Shown: positions 3,910-51,294 of the stretch, piece by piece | How positions within the stretch are numbered: position 1 is the stretch's first letter | Layout: every line of letters starts with the position of its first letter | From: a virus | DNA length: 64,000 nucleotides | IMG/VR virus record: IMGVR_UViG_3300024999_000029 | Coordinates: 248,001 to 312,000 of that record | Direction: 5' to 3' (one strand) | Position numbers and translations under genes: made by a program | The notes under the pieces: generated by a model | The model's database searches: none | The model's input: only the letters and a program-made list of their open reading frames with translations | What the model was told of the DNA's origin: nothing

Positions 3910-3924
3910 ATTAAAAATATAAAA
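3910..3924 (+). promoter_or_regulatory. AT-rich intergenic motif before portal gene
   Basis: ATTAAAAATATAAAA lies 26 nt before the portal ATG. It is one of at least ten close copies of one motif found in gaps between phage genes. A late promoter or an mRNA leader element are both possible. Confidence 0.4.
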
Positions 3925-3949
3925 TTCTTCACGAAAGGCAGGTGGCAAA

Positions 3950-6634: not shown

Positions 6635-8218
6635 ATGGAAAACACAGTAAATTCAACAGTTACAATAGAAAAGCTACAAGAAGAAAATGAAATTCTTCAT
6701 CAGAAAAATTCACTTCTTCAACAAGAAAAAGCGGAACTAGCAGCCAAGCTAAATTGGTTTGAAGAACAGTTCCGTTTGAATCAACATTGGCGATTCGCAG
6801 CTTCTAGTGAAAAGACAGACCCTGAACAAATTTCACTTTTTAATGAGTCTGAGGTTGAAGCAAAGCCTGATGCGCCTGAACCTACTGTTGAAGAAATCAC
6901 ATATAAACGTCGTAAAAGCAAGGGCCACAGAGAAGAAATGCTTAAAGACCTTCCTATAGAGGTTATAGAGTACCGTCTTTTAGAAGATGAAAAAGTCTGC
7001 GATTGTTGCAGCGGCGAACTTCATGAAATGAGTATTGAGATAAGAAAAGAACTTAAAATTACGCCTGCACAAGTAAGCGTTGTAGAACATAGAAAATGTG
7101 TATATGCCTGCCGTAAATGTGAACAGAATGAAATAAAAACGCCTATCAAAACCGCATCAATGCCAAGGCCTGCAATACCAGGAAGTATAGCATCATCATC
7201 GGCAATAGCCCATATAATGACGGAAAAGTTTGTTAAAGGATTGCCACTTTACCGCCAAGAACAGGACTGGAAGCGTATGGGCGTGGAGATATCCCGCCAA
7301 ACAATGTCTAATTGGATGATCCAGAGTTCTGATAGGTGGCTACGACTAATTTATGAAAGAATGCATGAGCATCTTATGAAAAGGGACATCTTGCATGCCG
7401 ATGAAACCACATTGCAGGTACTGAATGAAGCTGGAAGGCCAGCTGATTCGACCTCATACATGTGGTTGTACCGAACTGGGCGAGAAGGATCTCCTATTGT
7501 ACTTTATGATTATCAAACAACTCGGGCAGGCAAGCATCCCAAAAAATTTCTCGAAGGTTTTAAAGGTTACTTGAATACAGATGGATATTCAGGCTATAAT
7601 GACATGTCTGGAATTATCAACGTTGGCTGTTGGGCTCATGCTCGACGCGGGTTTACTGATGCTTTAAAAGCAATGCCACCTAAAAAGGATGATAAACCCA
7701 CTGCCACCGAAGAAGGATTAGCATTTTGTAACAAGCTATTTGAAATAGAAAGAGGCTTGCATGATGTAACAGTAGAAGAAAGATATGAAGGCCGCCTAAA
7801 TAAAAGTCGTCCAATATTAGAAAAATTCAAGGAATGGCTTAAATATCAGCGCCCGAGAGTTACTCCGAAAAGTGCATTGGGTAAGGCAATTCAATACTGT
7901 CTAAACCAGTGGGATAAACTGGGGTCATTTATGTTGGATGGAAGGCTAGAAATTGATAACAATCGTAGTGAAAGGTCGATTAAACCTTTTGTAATCGGCA
8001 GAAAAAACTGGATATTCTCAAATAGTTCGAAAGGAGCTACTTCTAGTGCTACAATTTATAGCGTTGTTGAAACTGCTAAAGAAAACGGGTTGAATCCATT
8101 TATATACTTGATGTATCTTTTAGAAAGACTGCCCAATATGGACATCAAGGATAAAGATGCCTTGGATAAGCTTATGCCATGGTCGGATAGTTTACCTTCT
8201 GCTTGTAGAGTTAAATAA
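6635..8218 (+). CDS. tnpC: IS66 transposase TnpC
   Basis: A 527-residue DDE transposase. In order: a Leu-rich coiled coil (about 10-50), a zinc-binding region with CDCC at 122-125 and CRKC at 159-162, then the DDE core with D256 (HADETT), D316 (NTDGYSGY) and E446 (NNRSERSIKP). The GCWAHARRGF motif (331-340) is typical of the family. No frameshift or internal stop, so probably active. Confidence 0.95.
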   Translation: MENTVNSTVTIEKLQEENEILHQKNSLLQQEKAELAAKLNWFEEQFRLNQHWRFAASSEKTDPEQISLFNESEVEAKPDAPEPTVEEITYKRRKSKGHREEMLKDLPIEVIEYRLLEDEKVCDCCSGELHEMSIEIRKELKITPAQVSVVEHRKCVYACRKCEQNEIKTPIKTASMPRPAIPGSIASSSAIAHIMTEKFVKGLPLYRQEQDWKRMGVEISRQTMSNWMIQSSDRWLRLIYERMHEHLMKRDILHADETTLQVLNEAGRPADSTSYMWLYRTGREGSPIVLYDYQTTRAGKHPKKFLEGFKGYLNTDGYSGYNDMSGIINVGCWAHARRGFTDALKAMPPKKDDKPTATEEGLAFCNKLFEIERGLHDVTVEERYEGRLNKSRPILEKFKEWLKYQRPRVTPKSALGKAIQYCLNQWDKLGSFMLDGRLEIDNNRSERSIKPFVIGRKNWIFSNSSKGATSSATIYSVVETAKENGLNPFIYLMYLLERLPNMDIKDKDALDKLMPWSDSLPSACRVK

Positions 8219-8280
8219 TAACAAAATTATATCCCTATCCTTATTTCAAGGTGGGGATTATTTTACGCTTACCTATATGG

Positions 8281-8309
8281 AGAGATAGAAAATGATTCTA
8301 TCTCTTTTA
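8281..8309 (+). terminator. Stem-loop with T-run beside IS66
   Basis: An 8-bp stem (AGAGATAG / CTATCTCT) is followed by TTTT. Before the insertion it overlapped the end of the small gene at 5645, so IS66 landed at the edge of its terminator-like hairpin. Confidence 0.6.
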
Positions 8310-8337
8310 ATTTGAGAATTTAATTGGAGGTTATTAT

Positions 8338-9654
8338 ATGGGATTGATTAGTGAAACTGTGATGGTTAAGTGGTATGGTACAAATAAAAAATATTACATA
8401 AACAAAGGATATCCATTTACCAAAATGGGTGATGAATTTGAAGTTAACGTTGAAGATTTGAGTAATTCGTTTGGTGGTAGCTTTAATGTTAAATGTGATA
8501 ATTGTAATAAGGAATTGCATATACCATGGATAAATTATAAAAAATGTGTAAAAGAAGATAAAAAATATTATTGTAAAGGTTGCGCAAGTAAATTATATGG
8601 TATTCCAAAAAGAATAAAAAAACAATTAAAAAATAGCAAGTCCTTTTATCAGTGGTGTATAGAAAATAATAGACAAGATGTATTGGATAGATGGAATTAT
8701 AAATTAAATAATTGTAGTCCAATGAATGTGACGTATAGCTCTGGTAAAAAATATTGGCTTAATTGTCCTGTTGGAGTACATAATGCCGAAGAAAAGAAGA
8801 TAGATAATTTTATAAAGAATATAGAAGGTTGTATTGAATGTAAAGCTTGTAATTCATTTGCTCAATGGGGAATTGATAATTTAGGAGAGGATTTTCTTGA
8901 AAAGTATTGGTCTGATAAAAATAAAATAAGTCCTTGGGATATTAGTTATTCAGTTGATAAAAAAGTTTATATTATATGTCAAAAAAAAGAATATCATAAA
9001 GATTATTATATAGGATGCAATAAATTTATACAAGGAGCAAGATGTCATTATTGTAACAGTAAAGGTAGTAAAATTCATTATTTGGATTCACTTGGACAAT
9101 ATATAGTAGATAATTTCGGGGAAAATTTTTTAAATAAAATTTGGTCAAACAAAAATAAAAAATCTGCTTTTGAGTATTTATTTAAGAGTACCCAAAAAGT
9201 ATATTGGAAATGTCCAGATGAAAAACATGAAGACTATCTTAGAAGTATAAAAAATTCTAATAAATATAATTTTAGATGTTCAGAGTGTAATAATTATTCT
9301 AAAGGGGAAGAAAAAATTAGTCAATATTTTATAAATAATAATATAAATTACACACCTCAAAAAACTTTTGATGGATTAATTGGACTAGGTGGGGGTAATT
9401 TATCTTATGATTTTTATTTATTAAATTACAATCTTCTTGTAGAATATGACGGAGAATACCATTATATTCCAATTAGAAATTATAAAAATGAACCAATAGA
9501 ATACGCAGAAGAAAGATTAAGAAAACAACAGGAACATGATAGGCTTAAAGACGAATATGCTAAGAACAATAATATAAAATTATTGAGAATTCTATACTGG
9601 GATTTCGACGATATTGAAGAGATTCTTGAAAGAGAATTAAATAAAGCGAGTTGA
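8338..9654 (+). CDS. Zinc-ribbon repeat homing endonuclease, free-standing
   Basis: A 438-residue protein with an N-terminal CxxC pair domain, three tandem units of about 70-75 residues (S-F-x-Q-W-x-I-D-N ... C-x-x-C, DUF4379-like probable zinc ribbons), and a C-terminal Vsr/DUF559-like PD-(D/E)XK nuclease with D358, E369, D371-G372 and H375 (YDFYL, EYDGEYHY). The repeats probably bind DNA and the C-terminus cuts it. It lies between head genes without an intron, as free-standing phage homing enzymes do. The first 90 residues match those of the gene at 31350. RBS TTGGAGG. Confidence 0.75.
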   Translation: MGLISETVMVKWYGTNKKYYINKGYPFTKMGDEFEVNVEDLSNSFGGSFNVKCDNCNKELHIPWINYKKCVKEDKKYYCKGCASKLYGIPKRIKKQLKNSKSFYQWCIENNRQDVLDRWNYKLNNCSPMNVTYSSGKKYWLNCPVGVHNAEEKKIDNFIKNIEGCIECKACNSFAQWGIDNLGEDFLEKYWSDKNKISPWDISYSVDKKVYIICQKKEYHKDYYIGCNKFIQGARCHYCNSKGSKIHYLDSLGQYIVDNFGENFLNKIWSNKNKKSAFEYLFKSTQKVYWKCPDEKHEDYLRSIKNSNKYNFRCSECNNYSKGEEKISQYFINNNINYTPQKTFDGLIGLGGGNLSYDFYLLNYNLLVEYDGEYHYIPIRNYKNEPIEYAEERLRKQQEHDRLKDEYAKNNNIKLLRILYWDFDDIEEILERELNKAS

Positions 9655-33864: not shown

Positions 33865-35958
33865 ATGAGTGATATTCTCATAAAAAGAGGCAAAGAATCG
33901 AATAGAACTTCATTTATGCCATTAAGAGGAGAGCCAATTGTAAGTTTTGATGACACAACTGGTAAACCCCGATTGTTTTTGGGTACAGGAACTGATATTG
34001 GTGGCATTGAAATAGGCACAAGTGCCGCTCACACTCATGAAGAATCTGATATTACTAATCTGGTATCGGATCTTAGTGCTAAAGAGGTATCAGCCAATAA
34101 AAGGGATTTAATTGAAGGATATACAACATCTTCCGCTTATCCATCGACAAAAGGGTTGGCTGCATATCTACATTCTACTCTATATAAAAGACAAGGCACT
34201 CTAGCCGACGTTATTGGTGGGACAGTAACATCATATACTGAAGGTGTATATCATTATACAAAAATAAGTTTTAGTGATTATGTGCGCTTCGACTATTTAA
34301 GTATAACTCCCAATCCTCCTAATTCTTATAAAATTAAGATTGATGTTTCTCTTGACGGCACAACATGGATGTTTATAACAAGCACCTTTGATAGTGTTGG
34401 AATAATGGCTTCTAATGGTACTCTTGTGGCAACAGCAAAACACGTCAGATTCGGAGCTAGCACAGTAGATAATATACCATCAGATGATTATACTTATAAG
34501 ATTCAAGAATATAATATATCTGCGAATTCTGAAAAAATAGCTAATAAAGTAACTGCATTTCAAACAACACCAGATAATACACATTATCCTAGTGAAAAAT
34601 TACTAAAAGATCAATTAGATTATAAGTCTTCTTTTGAGTCACCTTTATGTTTATATCCAACAGAAGGGCAAGTTGTAGCTTCAAGAATTCCATATGTAAT
34701 AACTGAAGCTGGAAGTGCTATTAGATATTGTAATTTATCTGCAAATAATCAAATATTAGCTGTTTTACAAGATGTTGCATGGAGTACAGCAACTGCTGAT
34801 TATGATGCATATAATGGAATTATTAAAATAGTTTCAGGTACAACTATAGAGTTTACAGATGATGTATTCGTTTCATTAGAAGCAACTTTAAGAGCAGATA
34901 GTTTTACTGGTTCTAGTGATAAATTTTTAAGATTTGCGTGGGTATGGGCTGATAATGATGATGTTATATCTGGAACAAATACATCATATATTTTCCCGCC
35001 AACTGAAAGTTATGGTTATAATTCATTGCCAATAGTAAAAGTATCAAGGAAATTTCATAAAGGAAATAAGATTAAGCTTAGAGTTACAGGTGCAGGTTCA
35101 ACTGGCACATCAACTGCTAGTATTCAAAAAGAAAGTACAAAATGTTACATTTATGAAATTAATAATACTTCAGGATATGAAAGAGATAAAGTACGTACCA
35201 TTATTCGTAAAAAATCTGATAGTAGTATTGTTTGGGATAGTGGAGAGATAGGTAAAACTACTAATCTTATTAAACGTTCTATGAATATGGCATATTCAAT
35301 ATGGGATAAAAACCTATGTAGTGCCACAGGCAATGCAAATTCACTTGGCATGTCAAAGATTACTCTTACGAGTAATTGGGATGTGTCAGTTAATCAACGC
35401 TTATATGGATATAGAAGTGGCGATGAGTATACCTTGCAAATTATAGTAATGAATCCAACAATAAATAAAATAAAAGTATCATTAGAAGATTATATTGGAC
35501 ATCAGGGAATTTATGCGGAATTTGGCTTAACTGACAGTGGTTCTATTATATCTAGTGGTACACACGGAGTTGATTCAGGGACATTAATACAAGCACAAAT
35601 TACTTATCCGCAGACAGGAATGTATGTATTGAATATTAGGGGAACTCCTGTGGTGGACACTAGTAGTTTTAAAGACCTAGATTCACAATTGGATTTAGAA
35701 TTTGAAGATGATATTAGCGGTGAAATTTATATTGGATTTGCTAGTGTGAAAAAGGGATTATATGATATTGCTAATAATTATCATTTATTAACTGATGATG
35801 CTAATATTCCTGAGCCGACCTATGCTAAATATTTGGTGGGATTAGATACTATGTTGGATGCTTCAGAAAATTATGAAGTAATAGTTGAAGATGTGACTAC
35901 AAAGGGGTTAAAAACATCTCAAAGTGATATTGTGAGTTTTTCAACTGGTTCATCGTAA
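33865..35958 (+). CDS. Fibre with Mtd-like N-terminal domain, copy 2
   Basis: 697 residues. N-terminal domain (DILIKRGKESNRTSFMPLRG, FLGTGTDIGGIEI), a helical neck (about 54-90), then several beta domains, including a discoidin-like stretch near 115-210 (RFDYLSITPNPP) and Gly-rich beta modules towards the end. This is the longest of the three copies and probably a major receptor-binding fibre. It follows copy 1 by 11 nt. Confidence 0.6.
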   Translation: MSDILIKRGKESNRTSFMPLRGEPIVSFDDTTGKPRLFLGTGTDIGGIEIGTSAAHTHEESDITNLVSDLSAKEVSANKRDLIEGYTTSSAYPSTKGLAAYLHSTLYKRQGTLADVIGGTVTSYTEGVYHYTKISFSDYVRFDYLSITPNPPNSYKIKIDVSLDGTTWMFITSTFDSVGIMASNGTLVATAKHVRFGASTVDNIPSDDYTYKIQEYNISANSEKIANKVTAFQTTPDNTHYPSEKLLKDQLDYKSSFESPLCLYPTEGQVVASRIPYVITEAGSAIRYCNLSANNQILAVLQDVAWSTATADYDAYNGIIKIVSGTTIEFTDDVFVSLEATLRADSFTGSSDKFLRFAWVWADNDDVISGTNTSYIFPPTESYGYNSLPIVKVSRKFHKGNKIKLRVTGAGSTGTSTASIQKESTKCYIYEINNTSGYERDKVRTIIRKKSDSSIVWDSGEIGKTTNLIKRSMNMAYSIWDKNLCSATGNANSLGMSKITLTSNWDVSVNQRLYGYRSGDEYTLQIIVMNPTINKIKVSLEDYIGHQGIYAEFGLTDSGSIISSGTHGVDSGTLIQAQITYPQTGMYVLNIRGTPVVDTSSFKDLDSQLDLEFEDDISGEIYIGFASVKKGLYDIANNYHLLTDDANIPEPTYAKYLVGLDTMLDASENYEVIVEDVTTKGLKTSQSDIVSFSTGSS

Positions 35959-35983
35959 TGGATTGGTGGTGAATAATTAATAT

Positions 35984-36445
35984 ATGAATATTTTATTAAG
36001 GAGAGGAAAGGAATCTAAAAGAAATACTATAACTCCATTAAGAGGCGAATTATTGATTGGTTTTGATGATGTGACTGATAAACCTAAATTGTATATGGGC
36101 AATGGCGTTAATGTTGGTGGATTACCATTATCAGATAATATTGGTTCAACATGGACTCCAATTATTACAGGAGATGGAACTGTAGAAAATGCTATGTATA
36201 CAAGAATTGACAATATAGTAACTTTTAGTTTAAGATTAAGTTGGACTAGTAGTACAGCAACATTTACACTTCCGATTGCAAGTGATTTTACAGATATATC
36301 AGATTTAATTGGAACTGTGATTTGTTTTCCAGATGTAGGGACTGAAATGAGGGTTGAGGCTGACGTTTCGTTAAATCAAGGTAGTGTGCGTACTGTATCA
36401 AGTGCTACTAATGCGTTGATTACTGGACAGTATATTATTAGGTAA
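35984..36445 (+). CDS. Fibre with Mtd-like N-terminal domain, copy 3 (short)
   Basis: 153 residues: the N-terminal domain (NILLRRGKESKRNTITPLRG, LYMGNGVNVGG) joined to one small beta domain that resembles the C-terminus of copy 1 (YTRIDNIVTFSLRLSW versus YTRIDDKVNFNLSFGI). It appears to be a minimal fibre, or a deletion derivative of a longer one. Confidence 0.6.
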   Translation: MNILLRRGKESKRNTITPLRGELLIGFDDVTDKPKLYMGNGVNVGGLPLSDNIGSTWTPIITGDGTVENAMYTRIDNIVTFSLRLSWTSSTATFTLPIASDFTDISDLIGTVICFPDVGTEMRVEADVSLNQGSVRTVSSATNALITGQYIIR

Positions 36446-36686: not shown

Positions 36687-36842
36687 GTGCTTATCATTTT
36701 AGCTACGCTGCTAATAATATTTAATAGTTGGGTTATATTTTTCGTGTTGAAAAAGCATATTGATAAAAGATTTAATGTTGCTTTAGATAAAGTAGAAACG
36801 ACAAATGAACTTTTGGTAATGCCTAATTTAAAAAATAATTAG
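36687..36842 (+). CDS. Small single-pass membrane protein
   Basis: 51 residues from GTG after GAGGGGAATGA. One transmembrane helix (LIILATLLIIFNSWVIFFVL, residues 2-21) and then a charged helix. Size and topology resemble small holin-associated or XhlA-like proteins, but no lysis enzyme is seen nearby, so a lysis role is only a possibility. Confidence 0.5.
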   Translation: MLIILATLLIIFNSWVIFFVLKKHIDKRFNVALDKVETTNELLVMPNLKNN

Positions 36843-36862
36843 TAAAGGGTGAAATTGATTAT

Positions 36863-37231
36863 GTGCTTATGAACAATTTAAGAAATTCTATTAAAGACAA
36901 ACAGGAATATATTGAGAATCTAAATAATCAAAAATTTGGACTGCGAATTAAATTCATGTATTCTATGGAAAGGGATGAAAATTGCTGGATAGAAGTACCT
37001 ACAGGAGTTGAGGTTTTGACGAATGGACATGTTTTTATATGCTATACAGATAGCAAAGATGAAATTCGAGTTCGTCATATGAATCAAGCGCAGAATAAAT
37101 CAAATAAGATTAAGATGCATGAAGAAAAAATTAGATTTAATGATTGGTTCAAATGTTTTCAATGGCTTAAAAGTTCTCACGCATACAATACAAAACTTAA
37201 GAAAGATATTTTTGATTTGTTGAAAAAGTAA
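36863..37231 (+). CDS. Hypothetical protein
   Basis: 122 residues, mixed alpha/beta, basic, no transmembrane segment (VPTGVEVLTNGHVFICYT in the middle, helical Lys-rich C-terminus). GTG at 36863 or ATG at 36869. The sequence ATGTGCTTAT just before it repeats that before the previous gene, suggesting local duplication of the start region. No family recognised. Confidence 0.5.
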   Translation: MLMNNLRNSIKDKQEYIENLNNQKFGLRIKFMYSMERDENCWIEVPTGVEVLTNGHVFICYTDSKDEIRVRHMNQAQNKSNKIKMHEEKIRFNDWFKCFQWLKSSHAYNTKLKKDIFDLLKK

Positions 37232-37232
37232 G

Positions 37233-37247
37233 ATTAAAAATATAAAA
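37233..37247 (+). promoter_or_regulatory. AT-rich intergenic motif
   Basis: ATTAAAAATATAAAA lies immediately upstream of a host-type promoter, so the motif and a sigma-A promoter occur side by side here. Confidence 0.35.
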
Positions 37248-37263
37248 GTATAATAACATTCTC

Positions 37264-37293
37264 TTGACATATTGGTATTTTTTATGATATATT
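37264..37293 (+). promoter_or_regulatory. Sigma-A-type promoter for membrane gene
   Basis: TTGACA, 18-nt spacer, TATATT, 31 nt before the ATG at 37325. It implies that the island 37.3-39.2 kb can be expressed from the prophage without late functions. Confidence 0.65.
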
Positions 37294-37324
37294 TAAAATA
37301 AAAATATGTCGGGAGAATCTAGAG

Positions 37325-37750
37325 ATGAGAAAAATCAAATTTAGCAAATGGTCAATGTTGACATTAGTTGCTGTAGGAATTGTTACATGTAGTTTATTAT
37401 ATTATTCTGTAGTTTTCATTAAAGATAGACAATTAGAATTTATTAGTACTGATGGATTTAAGCTTCTTGGAATGATATTTCTAATTTTTTGGATTTTATT
37501 ATTTTGCACTATACTTGTTTTTAAAAATTATGAATTATTGAAAAGGGTATTTGTTTTAACAGAAAAAAACAATGAATTAATCCAAGAAAATAATAATTTA
37601 TTGAAACAAGTAATAGCACATAATAACAACCACGTACAACAATGCGAATATCAATATGACAACATCGTTCGCTCCAATATGGAAGTTAAAGAAATGATAG
37701 TAGATTCATCTATTGATTATCGGAGGACGAACGATGTTGTTGAGAAATAA
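37325..37750 (+). CDS. Two-pass membrane protein with coiled coil
   Basis: 141 residues: transmembrane helices at about 11-31 and 44-65, then a C-terminal coiled coil (KNNELIQENNNLLKQV, about 79-95). Its last codons form the upstream arm of a long inverted repeat that covers the start of the next gene. Function unknown. Confidence 0.6.
   Translation: MRKIKFSKWSMLTLVAVGIVTCSLLYYSVVFIKDRQLEFISTDGFKLLGMIFLIFWILLFCTILVFKNYELLKRVFVLTEKNNELIQENNNLLKQVIAHNNNHVQQCEYQYDNIVRSNMEVKEMIVDSSIDYRRTNDVVEK
37659..37740 (+). promoter_or_regulatory. Inverted repeat covering a ribosome binding site
   Basis: A perfect 13-bp pair ACAACATCGTTCG (37659-37671) / CGAACGATGTTGT (37728-37740), extended by CTCC (37672-37675) with GGAG (37722-37725) across a 2-nt bulge. 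In RNA it would bury the GGAGGA and the ATG (37734) of the next gene. Candidate translational switch. Confidence 0.6.
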
Positions 37751-38066
37751 GATTAATTGGATTGATACTAATTCATTCAAAAAGAATGAAGGATATATCA
37801 ATAAACTTTTAAAATTTTATAAGTTTGAAGAGAATAAAGATTATAAATTAATATATAATGGTTATGGAGACTATGATTTACTTATAACTTGGAATAGAAA
37901 AACTTATAAAATTCAGATAGATGAAGAATCTCAATGTTATAATTTGCTTGCTAGAAATGAAGCAAATAATATTAAAAAAAAAGAAAGATACCATTTTTTA
38001 GAATCTTTTCACGGAGATGATTTAATTTTAAAAATTATAAAACATATTAAAAGTCGAGAGGTTTAA
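37734..38066 (+). CDS. Hypothetical protein, paralogue of 55795-56067
   Basis: 110 residues starting at the ATG after CGGAGGA, overlapping the end of the previous gene. The central block (GYGDYDLLITWNRKTYKIQ, CYNLLARN, KKKERYHFLES) matches KYGGDDILLTHRRDTYKVQ, CYILLKRN, KRREYYHLVKN in the gene at 55795. A small phage-specific family, function unknown. Its translation is probably controlled by the inverted repeat. Confidence 0.6.
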   Translation: MLLRNKINWIDTNSFKKNEGYINKLLKFYKFEENKDYKLIYNGYGDYDLLITWNRKTYKIQIDEESQCYNLLARNEANNIKKKERYHFLESFHGDDLILKIIKHIKSREV

Positions 38067-38067
38067 A

Positions 38068-38514
38068 ATGGAAACAATAATTAAAGAATTTGTATTATTT
38101 AATTTAATAGAAAATTTATTTATTGTTTTATTTTTCTTGATGTTTAATAAAATTAAAGAAAACCCAATGATTATAATAGTTCATGTGTTTATGTTAAGTT
38201 CCCTTAATACAATTTTAAAAGTATTGTTTTCAGGTTCTATATTAATGCAATTATTTGGAATAATAGTTATTATAATATATTTTACAAGTATATATCATGT
38301 TAAAATTTCACATAGCATAATAACCGTTATAATTTCATTTTCTATTTTATTAGTATCAGAGGCAATCATAGTAATATTTTATTTAAATATTACTATGATT
38401 GATATGTCAAAAATGTCAAATGATTTTAATAAGTTTTTATGGTTTATTCCAATTAGAATTTTGGAATATATTTCATTATATATTTTGTACTTAATAAAAA
38501 ATAAAATGAGGTGA
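38068..38514 (+). CDS. AgrC-like membrane domain without kinase
   Basis: 148 residues with about five transmembrane segments (roughly 10-26, 33-51, 55-74, 80-105, 122-143). Size, hydrophobicity and place upstream of agrB recall the peptide-sensing membrane domain of AgrC, but no histidine kinase follows. It starts 1 nt after the previous stop. AgrC kinship is inferred from topology and context, so another small membrane protein is possible. Confidence 0.4.
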   Translation: METIIKEFVLFNLIENLFIVLFFLMFNKIKENPMIIIVHVFMLSSLNTILKVLFSGSILMQLFGIIVIIIYFTSIYHVKISHSIITVIISFSILLVSEAIIVIFYLNITMIDMSKMSNDFNKFLWFIPIRILEYISLYILYLIKNKMR

Positions 38515-38519
38515 TATTA

Positions 38520-38570
38520 ATGATGATTAGCACTGAGAAATGGTGGTTTGGAGATATTAAAAGAAGGTAA
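38520..38570 (+). CDS. Possible 16-residue peptide
   Basis: MMISTEKWWFGDIKRR, preceded by a good GAGGTGATATTA site and followed by a terminator. It contains a WW pair but no Cys, and is too short for a normal AgrD (leader helix plus acidic tail). Whether it is a real peptide, a leader, or chance is open. Confidence 0.3.
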   Translation: MMISTEKWWFGDIKRR

Positions 38571-38589
38571 TTTAAAAACACATTTACTA

Positions 38590-38617
38590 GGAGTAGATAA
38601 AAATCTACTCCTTTTTT
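38590..38617 (+). terminator. Rho-independent terminator before agrB
   Basis: A perfect 8-bp stem GGAGTAGA / TCTACTCC, loop TAAAAA, then six T. It would separate the AgrC-like gene from agrB, or attenuate it. Confidence 0.75.
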
Positions 38618-38648
38618 GTGTTCAATTTTATTTTAAGGATGATGGTAT

Positions 38649-39218
38649 TTGTTAGATAATATATCAGAAAAGTTTATAAATTGGCTTATAAAAATAAAAA
38701 TTCTTAAGCAAGAACAATACTCAGATTGGGATTATTGGTTTAGGATTTTTTTATTTAATTCTATAGTTGTTTTTTCTTTATTAACAATAAATATATTGTT
38801 AGGCAGTTGGATTCAGTTAATTATAATTAGTATAGTAGTAAATGTTTTACGAATGTATAGTGGAGGTTTCCATGCTCCACAAGGTAAATTAGAATATTGT
38901 GTTCTGTTAACAATTCCCTTAGTTACAATTGCATCTTTCATTGCAAAGTATCTTCAATTATATCCATTGCAATTATTCATGGTTGCAGTTTTTTTAGGTA
39001 TTCTTATAATCAGAAAAATTCCATTAATATCAGAAGAAGAAAAAGAAAATAAGTCAGATAAATATTTTAGAGATAAATATATTTATAATTTTTTAATATT
39101 TTACAGTATTAGTTGTTTGGCAATAATGATAGATTCAAATATATGCAATATTATTTCAAGCGCAATAAGCATGGGAATTATATTAGTTGCATTAGCAATG
39201 AAAAGTTCAACAAAATAA
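38649..39218 (+). CDS. agrB: AgrB-like peptide-processing membrane protease
   Basis: 189 residues, multi-pass. It carries the AgrB signature RMYSGGFHAP with R68, G72-G73 and H75, and C84 (LEYC), the catalytic His/Cys pair that cuts and cyclises AgrD into a signalling peptide. The His-Cys spacing is 9, against 7 in Staphylococcus aureus AgrB (from memory). No AgrD is recognised on either side. TTG start after AAGGATG. Phage agr genes are known from Clostridioides difficile phage phiCDHM1; here agrB stands with an AgrC-like fragment only. Confidence 0.85.
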   Translation: MLDNISEKFINWLIKIKILKQEQYSDWDYWFRIFLFNSIVVFSLLTINILLGSWIQLIIISIVVNVLRMYSGGFHAPQGKLEYCVLLTIPLVTIASFIAKYLQLYPLQLFMVAVFLGILIIRKIPLISEEEKENKSDKYFRDKYIYNFLIFYSISCLAIMIDSNICNIISSAISMGIILVALAMKSSTK

Positions 39219-39702: not shown

Positions 39703-42438
39703 ATGCCTTATATTGGTACAAAATATGGAAGTGGAAGTAGTGGTAGTTCTTCTTCAAATACTTCAACAACTTATATATCTTCAGGTACAAAAATAGCTCC
39801 AACAATTACATATAACAATGGTTTAGGAACAGTTACTATAGGTGATGGAACATATAGACTTTTTCATACTACAAATTATACAGGAGTTATATCTGAACAT
39901 GTTATATCTGGTGCAACTTTCCCTATAACAGAACATATCACAACTTATATTTGTTCTGATTATAATAGTGGAACTCCTATAATTCGTACGATTACAGATT
40001 CATCTCAATTTAATTGGTCTAATATATGTCCTATTTATACAGTAACCAGAGATGGAGATAACTTATCTTGGGTCGATTGGGACTCGCCCAGCAATGGTTT
40101 ACCTAACAAGATTCATGATCGTTTAATACGTACTGATAGATTTTCAAGAGAATCTGGATTAAGCATTGGAGAATCTAGTGTTCCAATAGCACATACTATA
40201 ATTGTATCGGCAGGTACAATTTGGCAAGGTGTTTATAAAAACTCAATGGATTCAGTTGATTCATCTATTGATATAGTTAAAATGCTATATACTGATGGTA
40301 CTGGAAATTGGATTGATAGTTTTATAACTCAATATAATAACACACAATATGATACAGGATTGGGATTAGCTACTCTTACAGATGGTAATTATGCAGTAAA
40401 TTGGATATTTAGAATGATAGGTAATACTAAAGAAATTACTGTATTTTTGGGTGATGGGGATTTTGATTTAAATACAGCAAAAGCGTCTCAATTGCCTAAT
40501 AATATTCCTGCATCAATGTCTACTAATGGTATGCTTATAGGTCGTATTATTGTTCTAAAAGGTGCGGATACAGCAACTCAAATAGATAGTGCATTTGTAA
40601 CAAAGTTCGCTGCTAGTACTGTAACAAGTCATAGTGGATTGACAGAAATTGAAGGTGGAGATGCACTTGTAGGACACTATTATCATTCAGATCAAGAAAT
40701 TAATACTGATGATGATGTTGAATTTGCTTCAGTAACAACAAATGATTATAGAAGTTTGGCTGATGATTTACATTTAAACGCAGATGTTGGCTATGATATT
40801 ATGGTTCATGACAATATTATTCCTTCTTTAAACAATTCTAAAACATTGGGTGAATCAGGCTTAGTGTATGCTGAAACATTTACACGAAAAGTAACTTCTG
40901 ATGATGATTTATCATTAGATGCTTTAACTGGTAAAAATATTGTAATTAAGAAAAGTGTTTTACCAGATTTGACAAATACTCACAGTATAGGTTCTTCCAC
41001 AAAAGTTATTAAAGAAGTTTTTACAGAGAAGGTTACTTCTGATGTTGATTTAATATTAGGTTCAGCTATTGGTTCTGATATTATTTTAAGAAATGGCAAT
41101 GTGGATGCTGGAATAATTACAGAAACAGGCAATTGGGGAATTGGCAATATTAATCCTACTAAAAAACTTGAAATAACTGGTGATGTATTAATTGATGGTG
41201 ACTTGAGTGTTGATGGAACGGTTACACAGGTAGACGTTGTTAATCTTGACGTTACAAATAAAAATATAAACTTAGCTGTAACAGATACTCCTACAGATGC
41301 ACTAGCAAATGGTGGAGGTATTGTTTTAAAAGGAACAACCGATAAAACTATATTATGGGATAATTCTAATGTTGAATGGGATATTTCTGATGGATTAGAT
41401 GTTGATGGCATAGTTAAAGCAAATGGAACTACTAGTGATGGTAGTACTAATATATTTATTGGTAAAGATTCTCTTGGCGCTGATGTATTTAAAGTAGATA
41501 CTGATGGTAAAGTTACTGCTTCGGTCATTTCACCATCAATAGATAGTACAACAGGTGTACAAATAACCAAAGCTGATAAAATAACGCCAATCATTAATGT
41601 TGATACTACTAATGAAAGAGTAGAGATCAAAGGTGCTTCTGCTTATGGTATAACACAGTTTATTGGGAATGGATTAGACGCAGAATCTTCAATTGGCTTT
41701 AAGGATTCTACTGATATAAATGATGAAGCTTGGGTTATTGGTAAGAATGTAGGTTTGAGTAATACAACAGGCAGATTTGGTATATTTTATTTAAATGGTG
41801 AAAAATTAGTTATTACAACTGATGGGAATATTGGAGTGGGAATTGGAGAGCCTGATGACAGTGCAATTTTAGATTTAACGAGTACAAGTAAAGGATTTCT
41901 TTGTCCTAGAGTAACCAAAGCTCAACGACTGTTAATAACTCCGGTTGAAGGATTAGAAGTATTTGATACTACCGATAGTGGAAAATATTGTTATTCCTCA
42001 GGCAGATGGATACAAATAAGTGGTTTAGCTCAACTTACGGTTTATAAAACTGTAGATGCTTTCATTCCAGATAATACCGATATCCCATTCGTAACTGAAA
42101 TTAACTACAATATGGGAACAGTTACGTCCCCTTCAATTCCACTTAAAGCAAATAAGACCTACCGTGTCCATGCATACGTGCAAATAGATGGGGATGGTGC
42201 CGCCGCTGGTGCAAGGTTTGCATTTGTAAACTCTTCCGATAACAGTGCTATCAGTGGTTTAAAACAAGGGTTAGTTTACACAACTACAACTACTGGACAT
42301 GCTAGTTCACAACCAGTAGTAGGAGGATTGTATAGACCTACGAGTGATATATCAATAAAGCTAAGAGTTATATCAAGTTCTGGTACACCTAAGTTAAAGT
42401 ACGATACATTCCGAATTGAGATCCAGCAAATAGACTAA
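39703..42438 (+). CDS. Large tail fibre protein
   Basis: 911 residues. A short Gly/Ser-rich N-terminal anchor (YIGTKYGSGSSGSSSS), beta-domains to about 325, then repeats of a shaft-like unit (EVFTEKVTSDVDLILGSAIG and similar, three copies around 350-465), a coiled/beta shaft with NWGIGNINPTKKLEITGDV typical of fibre shafts, and LDLTSTSKGFLCPRVTKAQR near 725 as often seen before fibre tips. A C-terminal globular beta domain (about 780-911) is the likely receptor-binding tip. Confidence 0.7.
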   Translation: MPYIGTKYGSGSSGSSSSNTSTTYISSGTKIAPTITYNNGLGTVTIGDGTYRLFHTTNYTGVISEHVISGATFPITEHITTYICSDYNSGTPIIRTITDSSQFNWSNICPIYTVTRDGDNLSWVDWDSPSNGLPNKIHDRLIRTDRFSRESGLSIGESSVPIAHTIIVSAGTIWQGVYKNSMDSVDSSIDIVKMLYTDGTGNWIDSFITQYNNTQYDTGLGLATLTDGNYAVNWIFRMIGNTKEITVFLGDGDFDLNTAKASQLPNNIPASMSTNGMLIGRIIVLKGADTATQIDSAFVTKFAASTVTSHSGLTEIEGGDALVGHYYHSDQEINTDDDVEFASVTTNDYRSLADDLHLNADVGYDIMVHDNIIPSLNNSKTLGESGLVYAETFTRKVTSDDDLSLDALTGKNIVIKKSVLPDLTNTHSIGSSTKVIKEVFTEKVTSDVDLILGSAIGSDIILRNGNVDAGIITETGNWGIGNINPTKKLEITGDVLIDGDLSVDGTVTQVDVVNLDVTNKNINLAVTDTPTDALANGGGIVLKGTTDKTILWDNSNVEWDISDGLDVDGIVKANGTTSDGSTNIFIGKDSLGADVFKVDTDGKVTASVISPSIDSTTGVQITKADKITPIINVDTTNERVEIKGASAYGITQFIGNGLDAESSIGFKDSTDINDEAWVIGKNVGLSNTTGRFGIFYLNGEKLVITTDGNIGVGIGEPDDSAILDLTSTSKGFLCPRVTKAQRLLITPVEGLEVFDTTDSGKYCYSSGRWIQISGLAQLTVYKTVDAFIPDNTDIPFVTEINYNMGTVTSPSIPLKANKTYRVHAYVQIDGDGAAAGARFAFVNSSDNSAISGLKQGLVYTTTTTGHASSQPVVGGLYRPTSDISIKLRVISSSGTPKLKYDTFRIEIQQID

Positions 42439-43946: not shown

Positions 43947-44951
43947 ATGAGTAAAATAACTAGAGTTAAATACTTTACTGAAGATAGAAAATCTAAAATA
44001 AATCCTGATAATCTAAAATTATATGATAGGTATTTAAAGTCAAGTATTTTGAAAAATAAAGATGTCGAAACTACTACATATAAAGTTTATAAAAATTATA
44101 TGGATATGTTTTTAGTTTATTTGTCTGAGCAATGGGATAATGTTGGTCTATATGATCCAGAATTATTTAAAAACTCCATAGATGTAATCGAAGGATATAT
44201 GGGTTTTTGTCAGGAAGTTTTACATAATAATAAGAAAGTAATTAACACGAAGGTATCAACGATATCTTCTTTTTATTTATGGTCATTAAAACGTAGATTA
44301 ATTGATAGACATCCTTTCGATAAACAAGTAGATAGAATGAAAGGCGCTTCTGATGAGAAAATAATTAATTCTTACTTTCTAAATGATGAAGAAATAGAAA
44401 AAGTTTCTCAAGGAATAACTGAAGAAAATGGCTACGATATTATTGATAAATTGCTTTGGAATATTATGCTTGATTCCGCAAACAGAATAGGAGCAATCGA
44501 CAACTTAAAACTATCTAATTTAGACATAGAAAACTGTATGTTTACTGACATAAGAGAAAAAAGAGGATATAGAGTTGAAGTTGTAGTATCTGAGCCAACC
44601 ATGCAATTAATTGAGGAGTGGTTAGAAAAAAGAAAATCTATGGATAATTTAGAGGTAGATGCTTTATTTATCAGTAATTATGGTGGTGAGTATAGACAAA
44701 TGACAAAATCTACACTCCAAAATCGAATTAAAAACATAGGTAAGATATTAGGTTTGGAAGATTTTCATAGTCACTGTATTAGGAAAACTACTTTGAATAA
44801 TATTTATGACAAGACTGGGGATTTATCTTTAGCTGCCGAAATGGGAAATCATAAATCTACTGAAACTACTAGGAGTAGTTACATAAAGCCTAAATCAAAA
44901 ACAGAGATTAGAGACAAAATTAAAGAATTAATGGATAAAAAGAAAGAATAA
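43947..44951 (+). CDS. Tyrosine recombinase/integrase
   Basis: 334 residues. N-terminal SAM-like core-binding domain (about 40-130), then the catalytic domain with R180 (SANRIG), H276-x-x-R279 (HSHCIRK), H302 (GNHKS) and the nucleophile Y312 (RSSYIKP). All expected catalytic residues are present, so it is probably active. It lies in the tail module right before the tape measure gene, far from any usual integration module. Whether it integrates the phage, resolves dimers, or is a passenger is not known. No attachment site was identified. Confidence 0.85.
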   Translation: MSKITRVKYFTEDRKSKINPDNLKLYDRYLKSSILKNKDVETTTYKVYKNYMDMFLVYLSEQWDNVGLYDPELFKNSIDVIEGYMGFCQEVLHNNKKVINTKVSTISSFYLWSLKRRLIDRHPFDKQVDRMKGASDEKIINSYFLNDEEIEKVSQGITEENGYDIIDKLLWNIMLDSANRIGAIDNLKLSNLDIENCMFTDIREKRGYRVEVVVSEPTMQLIEEWLEKRKSMDNLEVDALFISNYGGEYRQMTKSTLQNRIKNIGKILGLEDFHSHCIRKTTLNNIYDKTGDLSLAAEMGNHKSTETTRSSYIKPKSKTEIRDKIKELMDKKKE

Positions 44952-45056: not shown

Positions 45057-46636
45057 ATGGCAAATGACCTTTCTATAATATTAAAGTCAAAATTAGACCA
45101 ATCAGCAAAGGCTGTTGGAGATTTAAACAAGCAAATAAAAGAAATTGAATCTAAATTAAAAGAAATAAAATTAAAAGTTAATTTTGATAGTAAAAATATA
45201 AATTCTAATGTAAAAAGTAAAATGAAAGATGTTGAAACTACTGTTAAAAATACATCAAAAAAAATAAAAATATTTGACGAAAATCAACTCAATAAAGATT
45301 TTATCGGTGTAAAAGATATCGTTAATAGAATCCAAAAAACCTTTAGTAAATTAGGAGATACAAAAATTGCTATAGGTAAAAACGCAAAAGGTGAAATACA
45401 ATCAGTAACAGCAGAAGTTACAAAAGCTAATGGTGTAATTGAAAAATTTAAATATAATTTAGGTGAAATACAAAAGGGTGGAAGGAAATATGCTGGTTTT
45501 GTATCTGGTGGTTCTAAAGTTACTGATAATACTGCTCAAATTGCAGAAAGACAATTACAAGCAGCTCAAAAGACAAATTCAGCAATTGAAAAACAGAATC
45601 AATCAAGAATACGCGCAGAAAATAAAATAAATGAAATACAAGAGAGAAATCTTAGGAATAGAGAAGCAAGAGAGGCACAAGCAACACAGAGAGAGTCACA
45701 AAGAAGACAAAGACTTGAATCTTCAACTAACGAAAGATGGCAGAGAAATTTAATACAAAGAGAAGCAAGAGAAGCACAAGTAGCTAGAAGAACGGCTCAA
45801 GTTGCAACTAATACTTCAAATCAACTAGGACTTTTTCAACAGCAGCAAAATCTTAGAGCAACGTCACTCACTGGTGGTGCGGCTGGGAGATTTGTTGATA
45901 ATACTGCATTAGAGCAATTTAGAAGAAGTGTTGCATCTCTAACACGAGATACGCCTAATCTTAGAAATAGAATGGCAGAATTGAGATTGGAATTTCAAAG
46001 AATTAATTCTTCCGCACAAAACGCTAGTAGAAGTTCTTTAAATCTTGGAGAATCTATTAGACAGGCCGCAATAAAATTCCCCCTCTGGATGGGCATAGCG
46101 ACTGTCTTTATGCAAATAACAAATCAAGTAAGAGATTCTATTAAGTATATATATGATATGGATACCGCTCTTACTGAATTATCTAAGGTTACTGATTTTA
46201 GTGCAGAAAGATTGGATAATATGCGTCAATCTGCATTGGAACTTGGAAAGCAACTTGGTCATAGTTCTGTTGATGTCATGAAATCTATGGCTGAATTTGG
46301 TAGAGTAACTAAAGATCCAGAGGCAATAAAACAACTTGCTAAAACAGCAACAATGGCTTCAAATGTTACTTCTATGACAGCTCAAGAAGCAGCCAAAGCT
46401 TTAAATTCTACAATGATTTCTTTTAAAATGAACGCAACTGATAGTATGAAGATATTAGATCAGTGGAATGAGATCCAAAATAATTTTCGTGTAAGTGCTG
46501 AAGATTTGGCAGATTCAATTGGGAAAGTAGGAGCAGCAGCAGGGCAAGCAGGAGTTAAAATTGAAGAATTAGAAGGATATACGGCAGCAATTGTATCAGC
46601 AACAGGCATTACAGGTTCGGAAAGTGGAACAGCCCT
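45057..46636 (+). CDS. Tape measure protein, exon 1
   Basis: The first 526 codons plus 2 nt of the tape measure gene. N-terminal coiled coil (8-60), a long Gln/Arg/Ala-rich coiled region (160-260), then the conserved minor tail domain with AIKFPLWMGIATVFM, YDMDTALTELSKV and ALNSTMISFKM. The exon ends after AGCCCT at 46636, inside the conserved G-S-E-S-G-T-A-L-K segment. Unspliced reading would add eight residues and stop at 46661. Confidence 0.85.
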
Positions 46637-46777
46637 TAAATTTAGGGGCTTGGCAGCATAATACATAAACTGCTAAGAAAAATCTATTCTAATATACGGC
46701 GAAACTCCAGAGATGGACAACGCCTTCCAATTTTTAATGTTATTTATAAAATAAAATAAAATCATCACAAATATAAA

Positions 46778-46791
46778 CTAAAATATAAAAA
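46778..46791 (+). promoter_or_regulatory. AT-rich motif inside intron, before nuclease gene
   Basis: CTAAAATATAAAAA precedes the nuclease ribosome binding site. The intron-borne gene thus appears to carry its own copy of the phage intergenic motif. Confidence 0.4.
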
Positions 46792-46801
46792 GGGTGATAT
46801 A

Positions 46802-47701
46802 ATGGCTTTTCATAAAATCAAAAAGCAAGATAGTTTTGCGCAATGGTTTTTAGATAATTTTGGTATTGATAAATTCAATACATTAATAAAACATGAGAAA
46901 AACTTAGAAGTAGGATTAGATATATGGATGATATTTAAAAGAAGCACAGCTAAAATATGGTTCTATTGCGAAAATAAAAATTATCATGAATTTTGTATGT
47001 CAGCATATAATTATTATAAAGGTCAAAGATGTAAATATTGTGCAAGAACAAAATATATTCATCCTAAGGATTCTTTAGGACAGTATATTATTGATAATTT
47101 TGGAGAAGATTTTTTAAATATAATATGGTCAAGTAAAAATATAAAATCTCCTTTTAAATATTCAATAGGAACTGAAAAAAAAGTATGGTTTTCATGTATT
47201 AATGAAATACATGAAGATAAATTAAGACAAGTAAAAAATGCGGTAAGAGGCGATTTTTATTGTCCTTATTGTATGGAAAATAATAATTCTTCAAAATTAC
47301 AAGAAAAGGTAAATCAATATATAAATTCATTAGGATATAAAATAAATACAGAATGTAATTGCACTATTATCCCTAAAAATCCAAAAACAAAATTTAATTT
47401 ACCTTTTGATAATGAAATAGAAGAATTAAAATTAATAATTGAAGTCAATGGACGCCAACACTATGATGAAATTAGCAGTAATAGTAAGTGGCTCAATGGG
47501 AAAACAGCTAAAGAATATTTACATAATAGAAAACTTAAAGACAGATATAAAAAAATCTTTGCGAAATCGCAAGGATATTTTTATTTGGAGATTCCTTATT
47601 GGTGTGATGACTATAAAGAATCTTGGAAAGATTTAATAAACAATAAAATAAATAATATTAAAAAGGGAACAACGACTGAGACGAATAGACTACATTTCTG
47701 A
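46802..47701 (+). CDS. Intron-encoded zinc-ribbon homing endonuclease
   Basis: 299 residues inside the group I intron. Two DUF4379-like units (SFAQWFLDNFGIDKF ... CKYCART; DSLGQYIIDNFGEDF ... CPYCMEN) then a PD-(D/E)XK nuclease (LPFDNEIEELKLIIEVNGRQ; IFAKSQGYFYLEIPYW). Its stop overlaps the catalytic core of the intron. Shortest of three related copies in the window; the C-terminus is nearest to that of 31350. Expected role: cutting intronless tape measure alleles to spread the intron. Confidence 0.8.
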   Translation: MAFHKIKKQDSFAQWFLDNFGIDKFNTLIKHEKNLEVGLDIWMIFKRSTAKIWFYCENKNYHEFCMSAYNYYKGQRCKYCARTKYIHPKDSLGQYIIDNFGEDFLNIIWSSKNIKSPFKYSIGTEKKVWFSCINEIHEDKLRQVKNAVRGDFYCPYCMENNNSSKLQEKVNQYINSLGYKINTECNCTIIPKNPKTKFNLPFDNEIEELKLIIEVNGRQHYDEISSNSKWLNGKTAKEYLHNRKLKDRYKKIFAKSQGYFYLEIPYWCDDYKESWKDLINNKINNIKKGTTTETNRLHF

Positions 47702-47852
47702 TGTAGATGCAACAGTCTGAACGTCACGCTATAATCTAAAAAATGAAACGTGAGAGAAATGGTCGCTGGTAATCAGACCAGCTAAAGAAGAACCGTTTCC
47801 GCTATCGAACAGATAGTCAGTAACCTTAAATCAAGGTGAAAGTAACAGATTG

Positions 47853-50800
47853 TAAATCCATAATTTCCAGAACATTTCGTATAGGCGAAGAAGGTGCTGA
47901 AGATGCAGGTAAAACAGAAGAGTATCTTAATTCTATAGGTATTGCTGTCAGAAAATCAGCTACAGAATTTAGGGATTTTTCTGGCATATTAGATGATATT
48001 AAAGGTAGATGGGGTTCTTTAACATCTACGGAAAAAAGTGCTTTAGCTCAACAAATGGCTGGAACCTGGCATTATTCAAAATTTATTGCATTAATGGAAA
48101 ATTATGGAATAGCACAAGATGCAACCAATAAAGCAATGAATAGTCAAAATTCAGCATTACAAGAAAATGCAAAATATATGAATAGTGTTGCTGGTAAAGT
48201 TGGACTATTTAAAGTTTCGTTAGAAAATTTATATTCCACAATTTTATCATCTGATGCTTTAAAAAATATATTAGATGGTTTAATTAAATTTATAGAAGTC
48301 ACAAATAGAGTTGTGACAGGATTGGGCGGATTTAATACAGCTTTATTATTAATAATTAATACTTTAATAATATTTAAAAGTAAGGCAATTGCTAGTGCTA
48401 TAACAAGTGTATGGGCATACATTGCCGCTTTCGGTTTAGCCGAAACAGCAACACTTGGGTTTAGTGCGGCAGTTAGTGTATTAAATACTGCTTTATTAGC
48501 ATTGCTTAAAAATCCTATAACATGGATACTTGCGGCAGTGGGAACATTGACTATTGGTATTTTTTCATGGATTAATGCTAATCAAAAATTAAAAGAATCA
48601 ATAATTGAAACAAATAAAGCTCAACTAGATTTTAACTTGGCTGTTAAAGATTTTTATCAAGATATGTCACCTGATAAAGTAAATGCAACTGCACAAGCTT
48701 TTGAAAATTTAAAAAAGCAACTTAATTATAAAAATGATAATGATTTACAAGAAGATATTAATAAAATTCAAGAGTTAAGAAAAGAATCTGAATGGGCTAA
48801 AAAAGTTTTATCTGATTCTGGCCGTAGTTCATATGAAAAGAATTTAGCTCAAAAAATATTACAACAACTATCTGATTTAGAAGATAAAACTAAAAAATAC
48901 ACTGAAGCTCAAAAAGAATTAGATACACAAAAGGCAATTACCAACATACTAGATACAGAATCCCAGAATAATATTGCCAAAAAGGTTAAAGGGAAATTAT
49001 CTGAATTAGATGCAGACAAAGAATTGATAAAACAGTATGAAAAAAGCGTTAAAGCTGGAAAAGAAGATAAAGAGATTCGTGACCAAATTTTAGATAAATA
49101 TCCTCAATATCTTAAAATGATTGGTGAGCATTCAGATAAAATTGGCATTAACACAGATACATTAAAAATTAATATAGATATTCAAGAAACTCTTGCAAAA
49201 GCTGAAATAGTAGAAGCACAAGTAGCAATGCGGGCAAGCTTAGATAAGACAACTACAATTGTAGAACAAACTAAGCAAAGAATAACGGCGTTAAAAGAAG
49301 AGCAATCCGCACTAGTAGCTATAAGTAAACCTATTTCTGTAGCTGATGTAGAAATTTCACCAGCTACAGAAATATTTAATGATCGAATAGAAGAAAAGTT
49401 TTCTCAAATAGTTGAGGCTGAAAAGGGTTTGGAACGACTTCAGTCAGCTATTGAAATTCAAAAAGGCTCTTTAGAATTAACTCCAGAACAAATTTTAGCT
49501 GCTGCAAAATCAGGTAAAAAAGGATATTTTTCAGATTCAGATGGAGATAAATCTTCCTTGCCAACTCTTAAAGAAGCAGTTGCTCGTGAAGAGTTAACTA
49601 AAGAACTTGTTAAGGCTTATAATAAAGAAGTTGATATATCAGATGTTAAGATTAAACATCTTGAGAGACAACTTAAAATAAATGACGAACAAAAAAATTA
49701 TAATAGAGAGCTTGAATTAACTAATTCACTTATATCAAACCAAGAGGCTAAAATTGGTCAACTTGGGACAGCTAATAAAAGTATAACAAAAGAGGCAGAT
49801 AAACTACGTGCCGATAATCTTAAATTTGACACAACCAAGTGGTTTGATGTGGGTGGAGAAGCAACAGTAGATTATAGGAAACTTCTTAATTCATTTGCTA
49901 TTGAATCAGAAAAAATACGTGCCAAAGCAGAAAAAACTAATACTAAAACAGCTATTCAAGAATCAAATAAACAGATTCAGGCTTTAGAAAATCAAAAGAA
50001 AAAAATTGAGGAATTATTTAACAATATTTATGCTCTTAAAAAGGCTTATGCTTCTAATACGGACGAAATATTAAAGACTGAAGATGCAGTTGATTCATTA
50101 AAACAAAGTGTTGTTAAATTAAATGAAGAACAAAAGAAACTCCAAGAAGAACTTTACAAAAAGCAAAAAAAATCTCTTGAAGAAATTTTAGATTTAGTCA
50201 CTGAGATGATTAAGCAAGAAGCGGAAGATCAAATTGACGCACTTGAAGAACAAGTTGATAAATATAAAGAAATAATTAGTGCAAAAAAAGAAGCATTGAA
50301 GCTTACTGAAGAACAACACGATTATGAGAAGTCTTTAGCTGAAAAACAAAAAGATATATCTAAGATTCAAAATCGTCTTTTAGAATTAAGTCTTGATGAT
50401 AGTCGTGCAGCACAGGCTGAAAGACTTAAATTAGAAGAAGACTTAGCAGATAAAACATCGGATTTAGATGAGTTGCAACATGATAGAAGTATTGAACTTC
50501 AAGAGCAAGCTTTAGATAAAGAATTAAAACAGTTTGAAGATACTAAAGACAAAGAGATTAAAGAAATTAAAGATTATCTTGATAAATCTGGACGTTTAAC
50601 TGCCGATGCTATGAAATTAATTAATACTCAAGGTGATACGGTTTATAACAATTTAGTAAAATGGAATGAATTGTACGGAGATTCGATTGAAAATAATGTA
50701 AAAAATTCCTGGGAGAGTGCTAAACAAGCCTTAAATAGTTATAAAAACTCTTTGAATCAAATTGATTATAATTTTGCATCACAAACTCTTAGCGATACTT

Positions 50801-51294
50801 TAAATGAGAGCGATATTATTGCTCAAATGCAAGCAAATTCTAAGTCTTGGTCTAATGCTAGTCCTGAATATAAAAAAGAGCTTGCGGCAGAGAATCTTAG
50901 ACTTGGAACAAGTATAGGATTAACCAGAGATGATAAGACTGGCATTTGGTATGATAAAAGTGGAGTTAGAGCTTATGCTGGTGGTGGCACAAGTACTGAA
51001 ACTCAACTTGCATTATTACATGGCACAAAAGCTAATCCAGAATGGATTCTTAATTCAGGTCAAATGAAAAGTTTGATTACTAATTTGACTTTACCTCAAT
51101 TCAAGATGCCTGAAGTTAAGGGATTATCTAATGGCAGTGGGGTTCAAATTGGTAGTTTGATTACAGTAAATGGAAATGTAGATAAAGCAGCTATGCCAAA
51201 ACTTGAAACTGTTGTAAATCAAGCAGTTGATAAGTTGGTTAATACGATGGGACTTAGGGGCAATACTAGGTCGACAAAATCATATAGCATTTAG
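47853..51294 (+). CDS. Tape measure protein, exon 2
   Basis: The remaining coding part, read in frame from the codon completed across the splice (A-L-K-S-I-I-S-R). The spliced protein is 1,673 residues, predicting a tail near 250 nm at about 0.15 nm per residue. Hydrophobic segments at about residues 165-235 of the exon (FNTALLLIINTLIIF; NPITWILAAVGTLTIGIFSW) are the usual transmembrane region that may enter the host membrane. Long coiled coils follow (about 400-970). The ATG at 47836 lies inside the intron and is not a start. Confidence 0.85.

Follow-up and report, generated by a model that had tools for sequence, protein, structure and literature searches.

A compact agr-like phage cassette with a candidate leaderless peptide substrate for AgrB

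AgrB enzymes are known as signal makers, and they are thought to process AgrD precursors that carry a leader, yielding thiolactone or lactone rings. In S. aureus, the canonical AgrD precursor includes the leader, and cleavage requires acidic residues downstream of the cut (PMC10196373). Brevibacillus phages Davies, Emery, and Abouo encode AgrB, a putative AgrD, and kinase-less AgrC-like membrane proteins, and Clostridioides difficile phage phiCDHM1 encodes a 453-aa AgrC with a HATPase domain and a 45-aa AgrD with a P-x-x-P motif (PMC3901668). Paenibacillus phage Harrison carries genes like those of the three Brevibacillus phages. Sets of kinase-less AgrC, AgrB, and AgrD have thus been reported from Brevibacillus phages, and the cassette described here shares their idea but not their details.

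We analyzed a 64,000-nucleotide stretch of DNA (the window) spanning bases 248001-312000 of the 349,050-base virus record IMGVR_UViG_3300024999_000029. The terminase of this record is 36-41% identical to SPbeta-type Bacillus phage and Thomasclavelia phage terminases, and judged by this protein the 349-kb record is SPbeta-like. The agr-like cassette is flanked by tail-fibre genes at 33865-36445 and 39703-42438, with tape-measure genes further on. Elsewhere in the window, the terminase gene is followed by ORFs for a transposase and an HNH endonuclease (6635-9654), and a tyrosine-recombinase (integrase-like) gene lies inside the tail region (43947-44951). The tape-measure gene is apparently split (region 45057-51294), with its N-terminal part at 45057-46661 and the remainder from 47836; between the two parts sits a DUF4379 (endonuclease-like) ORF (46802-47701), and the split possibly reflects an intron or other insertion.

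The same seven-gene cassette, in the same gene order, is carried by two related phages, L028 (IMGVR_UViG_3300025121_000030, reached via its terminase) and L112 (IMGVR_UViG_3300024999_000040, reached via the protein that flanks the cassette downstream). Cassette proteins are 24-60% identical among the three phages, whereas the protein just downstream of the cassette is ~80% identical, which indicates that the whole cassette has been kept while diverging fast. These were the only three independent cassettes found, all on metagenome-derived virus contigs. When AgrB or the 148-aa protein served as the sole query, protein searches of viral and phage collections found nothing, and scans with the AgrB pair, the 113-aa pair, the 122-aa family, or the upstream tail-fibre protein gave nothing or just copies of these phages.

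All cassette features lie on the + strand. The first gene of the wider cassette (36687-36842, GTG start) encodes a 51-aa protein with one transmembrane (TM) helix and a short helix; its homologues occupy the same position in L028 (2363-2563) and L112 (854-1057), with identities of 24-38%. It is followed by a gene for a soluble protein of 122 aa with no assigned function (36863-37231), to which the L028 and L112 homologues are 32-60% identical; no member of this family was found in 398 bacterial genomes of the phylum. A sigma-A-type promoter can then be read in the sequence (TTGACA, an 18-base spacer, and TATATT; 37264-37293), ahead of the operon's first gene, which encodes a 141-aa protein with two TM helices and a C-terminal coiled coil (37325-37750; L028 and L112 homologues 25-33% identical). 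TTGACA-17-TATAAT lies just 5′ of the same gene in L028 and L112, placing a promoter there in all three phages. In L112, endonuclease-like and antirepressor-like genes (1597-3973) are inserted in the cassette just 5′ of the operon promoter. The next gene encodes a soluble alpha/beta protein of 110 aa with no assigned function (37734-38066), which is 28-43% identical among the three phages. A search of the PDB with its predicted fold (pLDDT 70.6) returned no match with E < 0.3. A likeness to the integron protein VCH_CASS14, which ranked top both by fold (E=0.32) and by a weak sequence score, was rejected as insufficient. Neither soluble protein of the cassette showed a likeness to LytTR. The stretch from 36687 to 38066 looks like a tandem arrangement of two gene pairs, each coding for one small membrane protein and one soluble protein (51-aa/122-aa and 141-aa/110-aa); a profile comparison of the two soluble proteins was not significant.

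AgrB is encoded at 38649-39218 (TTG start) as a 189-aa membrane cysteine peptidase of the PF04647 family, and it is the sole AgrB of the record. It matched positions 1-183 of the 185-position Pfam profile with E=4.1e-19 and 69.1 bits, against a curated cut-off of 23; the corresponding scores were 79 bits for L028's record and 29.6 bits for L112. The L028 and L112 AgrBs share 33% and 26% identity with the window AgrB. An earlier note on this DNA, made from the sequence alone, had described an AgrB with its catalytic His and Cys, and both residues (His75 and Cys84) are indeed in place, as they are in the AgrBs of all three phages. The note had also remarked that the gap between them is two residues longer than in S. 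aureus AgrB. This is true beyond S. aureus: the active-site segment HAPQGKLEYC (38871-38900) holds 8 residues between His and Cys, versus 6 in 39 of 39 clostridial AgrBs. The gap is 6 in L028 AgrB and also 6 in L112 AgrB, which has an insertion before the His. The active-site loop departs from the clostridial pattern in two of the three phage AgrBs.

Upstream of agrB, a 148-aa membrane protein with five predicted helices is encoded at 38068-38514. The earlier note had taken the upstream membrane protein for the sensing half of AgrC without its kinase, and had begun the locus at 37325, a position that belongs to the two-TM, coiled-coil protein and not to the sensor. We scored the 148-aa protein against an AgrC sensor profile built from the first 165 residues of 21 clostridial AgrC proteins. 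It reached 23.6 bits, co-linear over residues 9-146 and thus end to end. Among the controls, 400 shuffles gave at most 8.1 bits, unrelated hydrophobic ORFs of the compared loci at most 7.9 bits, and 62 further clostridial hydrophobic proteins at most 4.2 bits; AgrCs left out of the profile mostly scored 15-70 bits. When the two-sequence 148-aa family was compared with AgrC by hhalign, the probability was 95%. The L028 homologue scored 12.6 bits and the L112 homologue 1.3 bits, which is not significant alone, so that the link of the latter to AgrC runs via its relatives (25-34% identity). A low-confidence model of the protein (pLDDT 63.8) has five long helices, and a fold search with it gave no match with E < 6. 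Collectively, these comparisons support a resemblance to the AgrC sensor that is clear for the window protein and weaker for its relatives.

The 148-aa protein ends ahead of the kinase part of AgrC, and no HATPase_c_5 kinase was found in this protein or in the 349-kb record. Nor did the record yield a match to a LytTR domain or an AgrA-type response regulator. The 141-aa protein has at most a weak resemblance to the region of AgrC from TM6 to the coil. Taken together as a split AgrC, the 148-aa and TM/coiled-coil proteins gave an hhalign probability of 86%, but the cassette's small TM proteins, at 6.5-8.7 bits, come close to the plain scores of 6-12 bits, so that a split AgrC is no more than a possibility.

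The earlier note had seen no peptide near agrB. The 135-base gap before this gene holds an ORF of 15-16 codons, M(M)ISTEKWWFGDIKRR, situated between the sensor gene and agrB. This candidate mini-AgrD reads MMISTEKWWFGDIKRR when started at 38520 and MISTEKWWFGDIKRR when started at 38523, ends at 38570, and has no leader and no Cys. Its Shine-Dalgarno sequence, GAGGTGAT (38508-38515), is an 8-base match placed 4 or 7 bases ahead of the two possible ATGs. None of the 363 small ATG ORFs (14-60 codons) that the window has on its + strand has a longer match; on the opposite strand, 0 of 291 small ATG ORFs had a match of 7 or more bases. Counterparts occupy the slot before agrB in L028 (4198-4281; MGGFYFGKPAKVNTQKQTETKKEEVKK) and L112 (5208-5276; MFWLLFGKPSKKKDVKKEVICK), and their Shine-Dalgarno sequences match over nine and eight bases, respectively. 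These two peptides begin MGGFYFGKPAK and MFWLLFGKPSK, and their FGKP step is encoded with synonymous codon differences (TTTGGTAAACCT / TTTGGAAAACCG). The window peptide shares just Phe-Gly with them.

As expected of an AgrD, the ORF is short, adjoins agrB, and has a charged C-terminal tail. The phage peptides otherwise depart from the S. aureus precursor in their missing leader: the amphipathic segment of ~20-25 residues is absent, and the presumed core lies at the first residues in all three. The L028 and L112 peptides also lack the Cys or Ser that serves as ring nucleophile some five residues ahead of the cut; the window peptide has a Ser, but at a spacing other than that of the AgrD ring nucleophile. 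The PxxP motif is absent as well, and neither PF05931 nor a profile of 20 clostridial AgrDs matched at the peptide ORF. The peptides are so short that their likeness to AgrD consists of position plus a motif of two to four residues. Among 30 clostridial loci chosen by similarity to the phage AgrBs, 29 have, by agrB, an ORF of ~39-69 codons that encodes a leader and a tail of the Q/E-P-x-x-P type, and an AgrD with these two features is present in almost every locus of an initial set of 40 from Clostridia. The first residue of two of the phage peptides corresponds roughly to the beginning of the ring in a clostridial AgrD.

AgrD profiles that recovered a positive control at E=1e-16 detected no canonical AgrD in the three phage records. 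The absence of an obvious AgrD noted earlier thus stands for the window record as a whole, in which neither a canonical AgrD nor a HATPase_c_5 kinase was found, and so no standard agrD-agrC set elsewhere. A non-exhaustive literature search returned no report of leaderless AgrB substrates. The short peptides most likely belong to an agr-like system of the phage itself, in which they would be the substrates of its AgrB.

Three options had been offered for an AgrB without a visible partner: processing of a host AgrD, interception of the host signal by a decoy receptor, and a non-standard peptide. The last fits best, because three diverged cassettes each have a short leaderless ORF, Cys-free before the presumed cut, at this position. 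That AgrB processes a host AgrD is less probable, since a candidate substrate is encoded by the phage itself and the active-site loop is off the clostridial pattern. A broader reading is that the cassette interferes with host agr, with AgrB processing host AgrD, or the sensor soaking up signal or forming dead heterodimers with host AgrC, and with the short ORF as an antagonist peptide or irrelevant. Such interference would suit a kinase-less protein that resembles clostridial AgrC in a record in which no receiving kinase was found, and agr loci are common in Clostridia and kin, occurring in 114 of 398 genomes. We nevertheless regard it as unlikely: the phage operon has its own conserved peptide ORF, the loop of two of the three phage AgrBs is atypical for Clostridia, and clostridial AgrDs (~40-55 aa, with a leader and a Q/E-P-x-x-P tail) are unlike the phage peptides.

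Between the peptide ORF and agrB lies an intrinsic-terminator hairpin (38577-38622), with a 10-bp stem followed by a U run, inside a 6-bp outer stem. The window hairpin has a folding energy of -19.7 kcal/mol (z = -6.05), and terminators follow the peptide and precede agrB in all three phages (z -6.9 in L028 and -5.4 in L112). The outer stem pairs across the U run, and the same two-tier shape is formed by different bases in L028 and L112. An ORF followed by a terminator in three of three phages could also be explained by a regulatory leader peptide, whose translation would set terminator read-through into agrB while the peptide itself had no function; the two adjacent Trp codons of the window peptide recall amino-acid attenuators. 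We consider this explanation very improbable. The other two peptides have no single-amino-acid run open to such sensing, the FGKP residues are conserved despite codon changes, the distance from ORF to hairpin varies between phages, and no alternative antiterminator was identified.

SPbeta carries sublancin, and a counterpart of SPbeta-type prophage bacteriocin genes would be conceivable in a phage whose terminase is SPbeta-like. The short ORF would then encode a small antimicrobial or membrane-active peptide, with AgrB as its maturation enzyme and the 148-aa protein conferring immunity. A short hydrophobic-aromatic N-terminus and a cationic tail suit such a peptide, as does the multi-TM protein gene directly upstream. 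However, that membrane protein is AgrC-sensor-like over its whole length, which would be unexpected of an unrelated immunity protein, and AgrB enzymes are known as makers of signals; this role is, in our estimate, quite unlikely.

We slightly favor the reading that the phage carries a compact cassette of the agr type, complete with a non-canonical substrate of its own. A single sigma-A promoter would drive the TM/coiled-coil protein, the small soluble protein, the kinase-less sensor, and a peptide of 15-27 codons, the latter translated from a very strong ribosome site. The terminator after the peptide would lower the level of agrB and leave more substrate than enzyme. Cleavage by AgrB would presumably fall near the Phe-Gly step common to the peptides and would release a short aromatic N-terminal part (approximately MISTEKWWF, (M)GGFYF, and MFWLLF) for secretion. 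If the cut is there, thiolactone or Ser-lactone rings are excluded for two of the three products, since no Cys or Ser precedes Phe-Gly in them; these two would be either linear or cyclized head to tail. The kinase-less sensor-like protein would bind the product and act as a blocker, as a partner of the co-transcribed proteins, in self-immunity, or possibly as a decoy receptor. With the peptide in excess, the enzyme behind a terminator, and the sensor in the operon, the layout fits a self-contained peptide system better than processing of host AgrD; such a system may act in phage signaling, in blocking host agr, or as a bacteriocin-like peptide with its immunity.

A more far-reaching proposal, which we offer as a tentative possibility, is that the AgrBs in these phages accept precursors without a leader and liberate Cys/Ser-free linear or head-to-tail cyclic peptides, for which a kinase-less AgrC, possibly split between the 148-aa protein and the TM/coiled-coil protein, would serve as receptor. 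This would constitute minimal phage-phage or phage-host signaling without leader, thiolactone, kinase, or response regulator. Leaderless candidate substrates in three diverged cassettes, two of them unable to close a thiolactone or lactone ring, would point to a simpler AgrB chemistry and would open the minimal AgrB substrate to direct testing. Arbitrium is known from SPbeta-like phages; if the proposal is true, such phages would have a second peptide-signaling route besides it.

In HdrRM and BrsRM, a kinase-less multi-TM membrane protein is encoded beside a small cytoplasmic partner. These systems are not known to include AgrB. They are LytTR regulatory systems (PMC6193735) and differ in this from the phage record, in which no LytTR domain was found. 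The agr3 locus of phiCDHM1 resembles the present cassette in combining AgrB, an AgrC-type gene, and AgrD with no response regulator (PMC3901668); the kinase, the AgrD leader, and the P-x-x-P motif are missing here. The agr loci on clostridial chromosomes (Lachnospiraceae, Sedimentibacter, and others) share the AgrB family, the AgrC sensor domain, and aromatic residues before the presumed cut.

Emery, Davies, Abouo, and Harrison share with the present phage an AgrB, an adjoining kinase-less membrane protein, and an AgrD-like ORF with a Cys-free core. The membrane proteins of the Brevibacillus phages matched neither the AgrC profile nor the 148-aa family. In Emery (L120:35858-36223), the ORF after the AgrD-like gene is LytTR-like at 19.1 bits, a score below the cut-off, and the kinase-less membrane protein and this ORF may form the receiving part there, in contrast to the present record with no LytTR found. 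The AgrD-like ORFs of the four phages encode 38-42 aa, including a leader and a proline-rich tail of the PKEL type; they are placed after agrB and ahead of one further ORF, near integrase and repressor genes, whereas the present peptide has 15-27 aa, is leaderless, and lies before agrB in the tail-fibre region.
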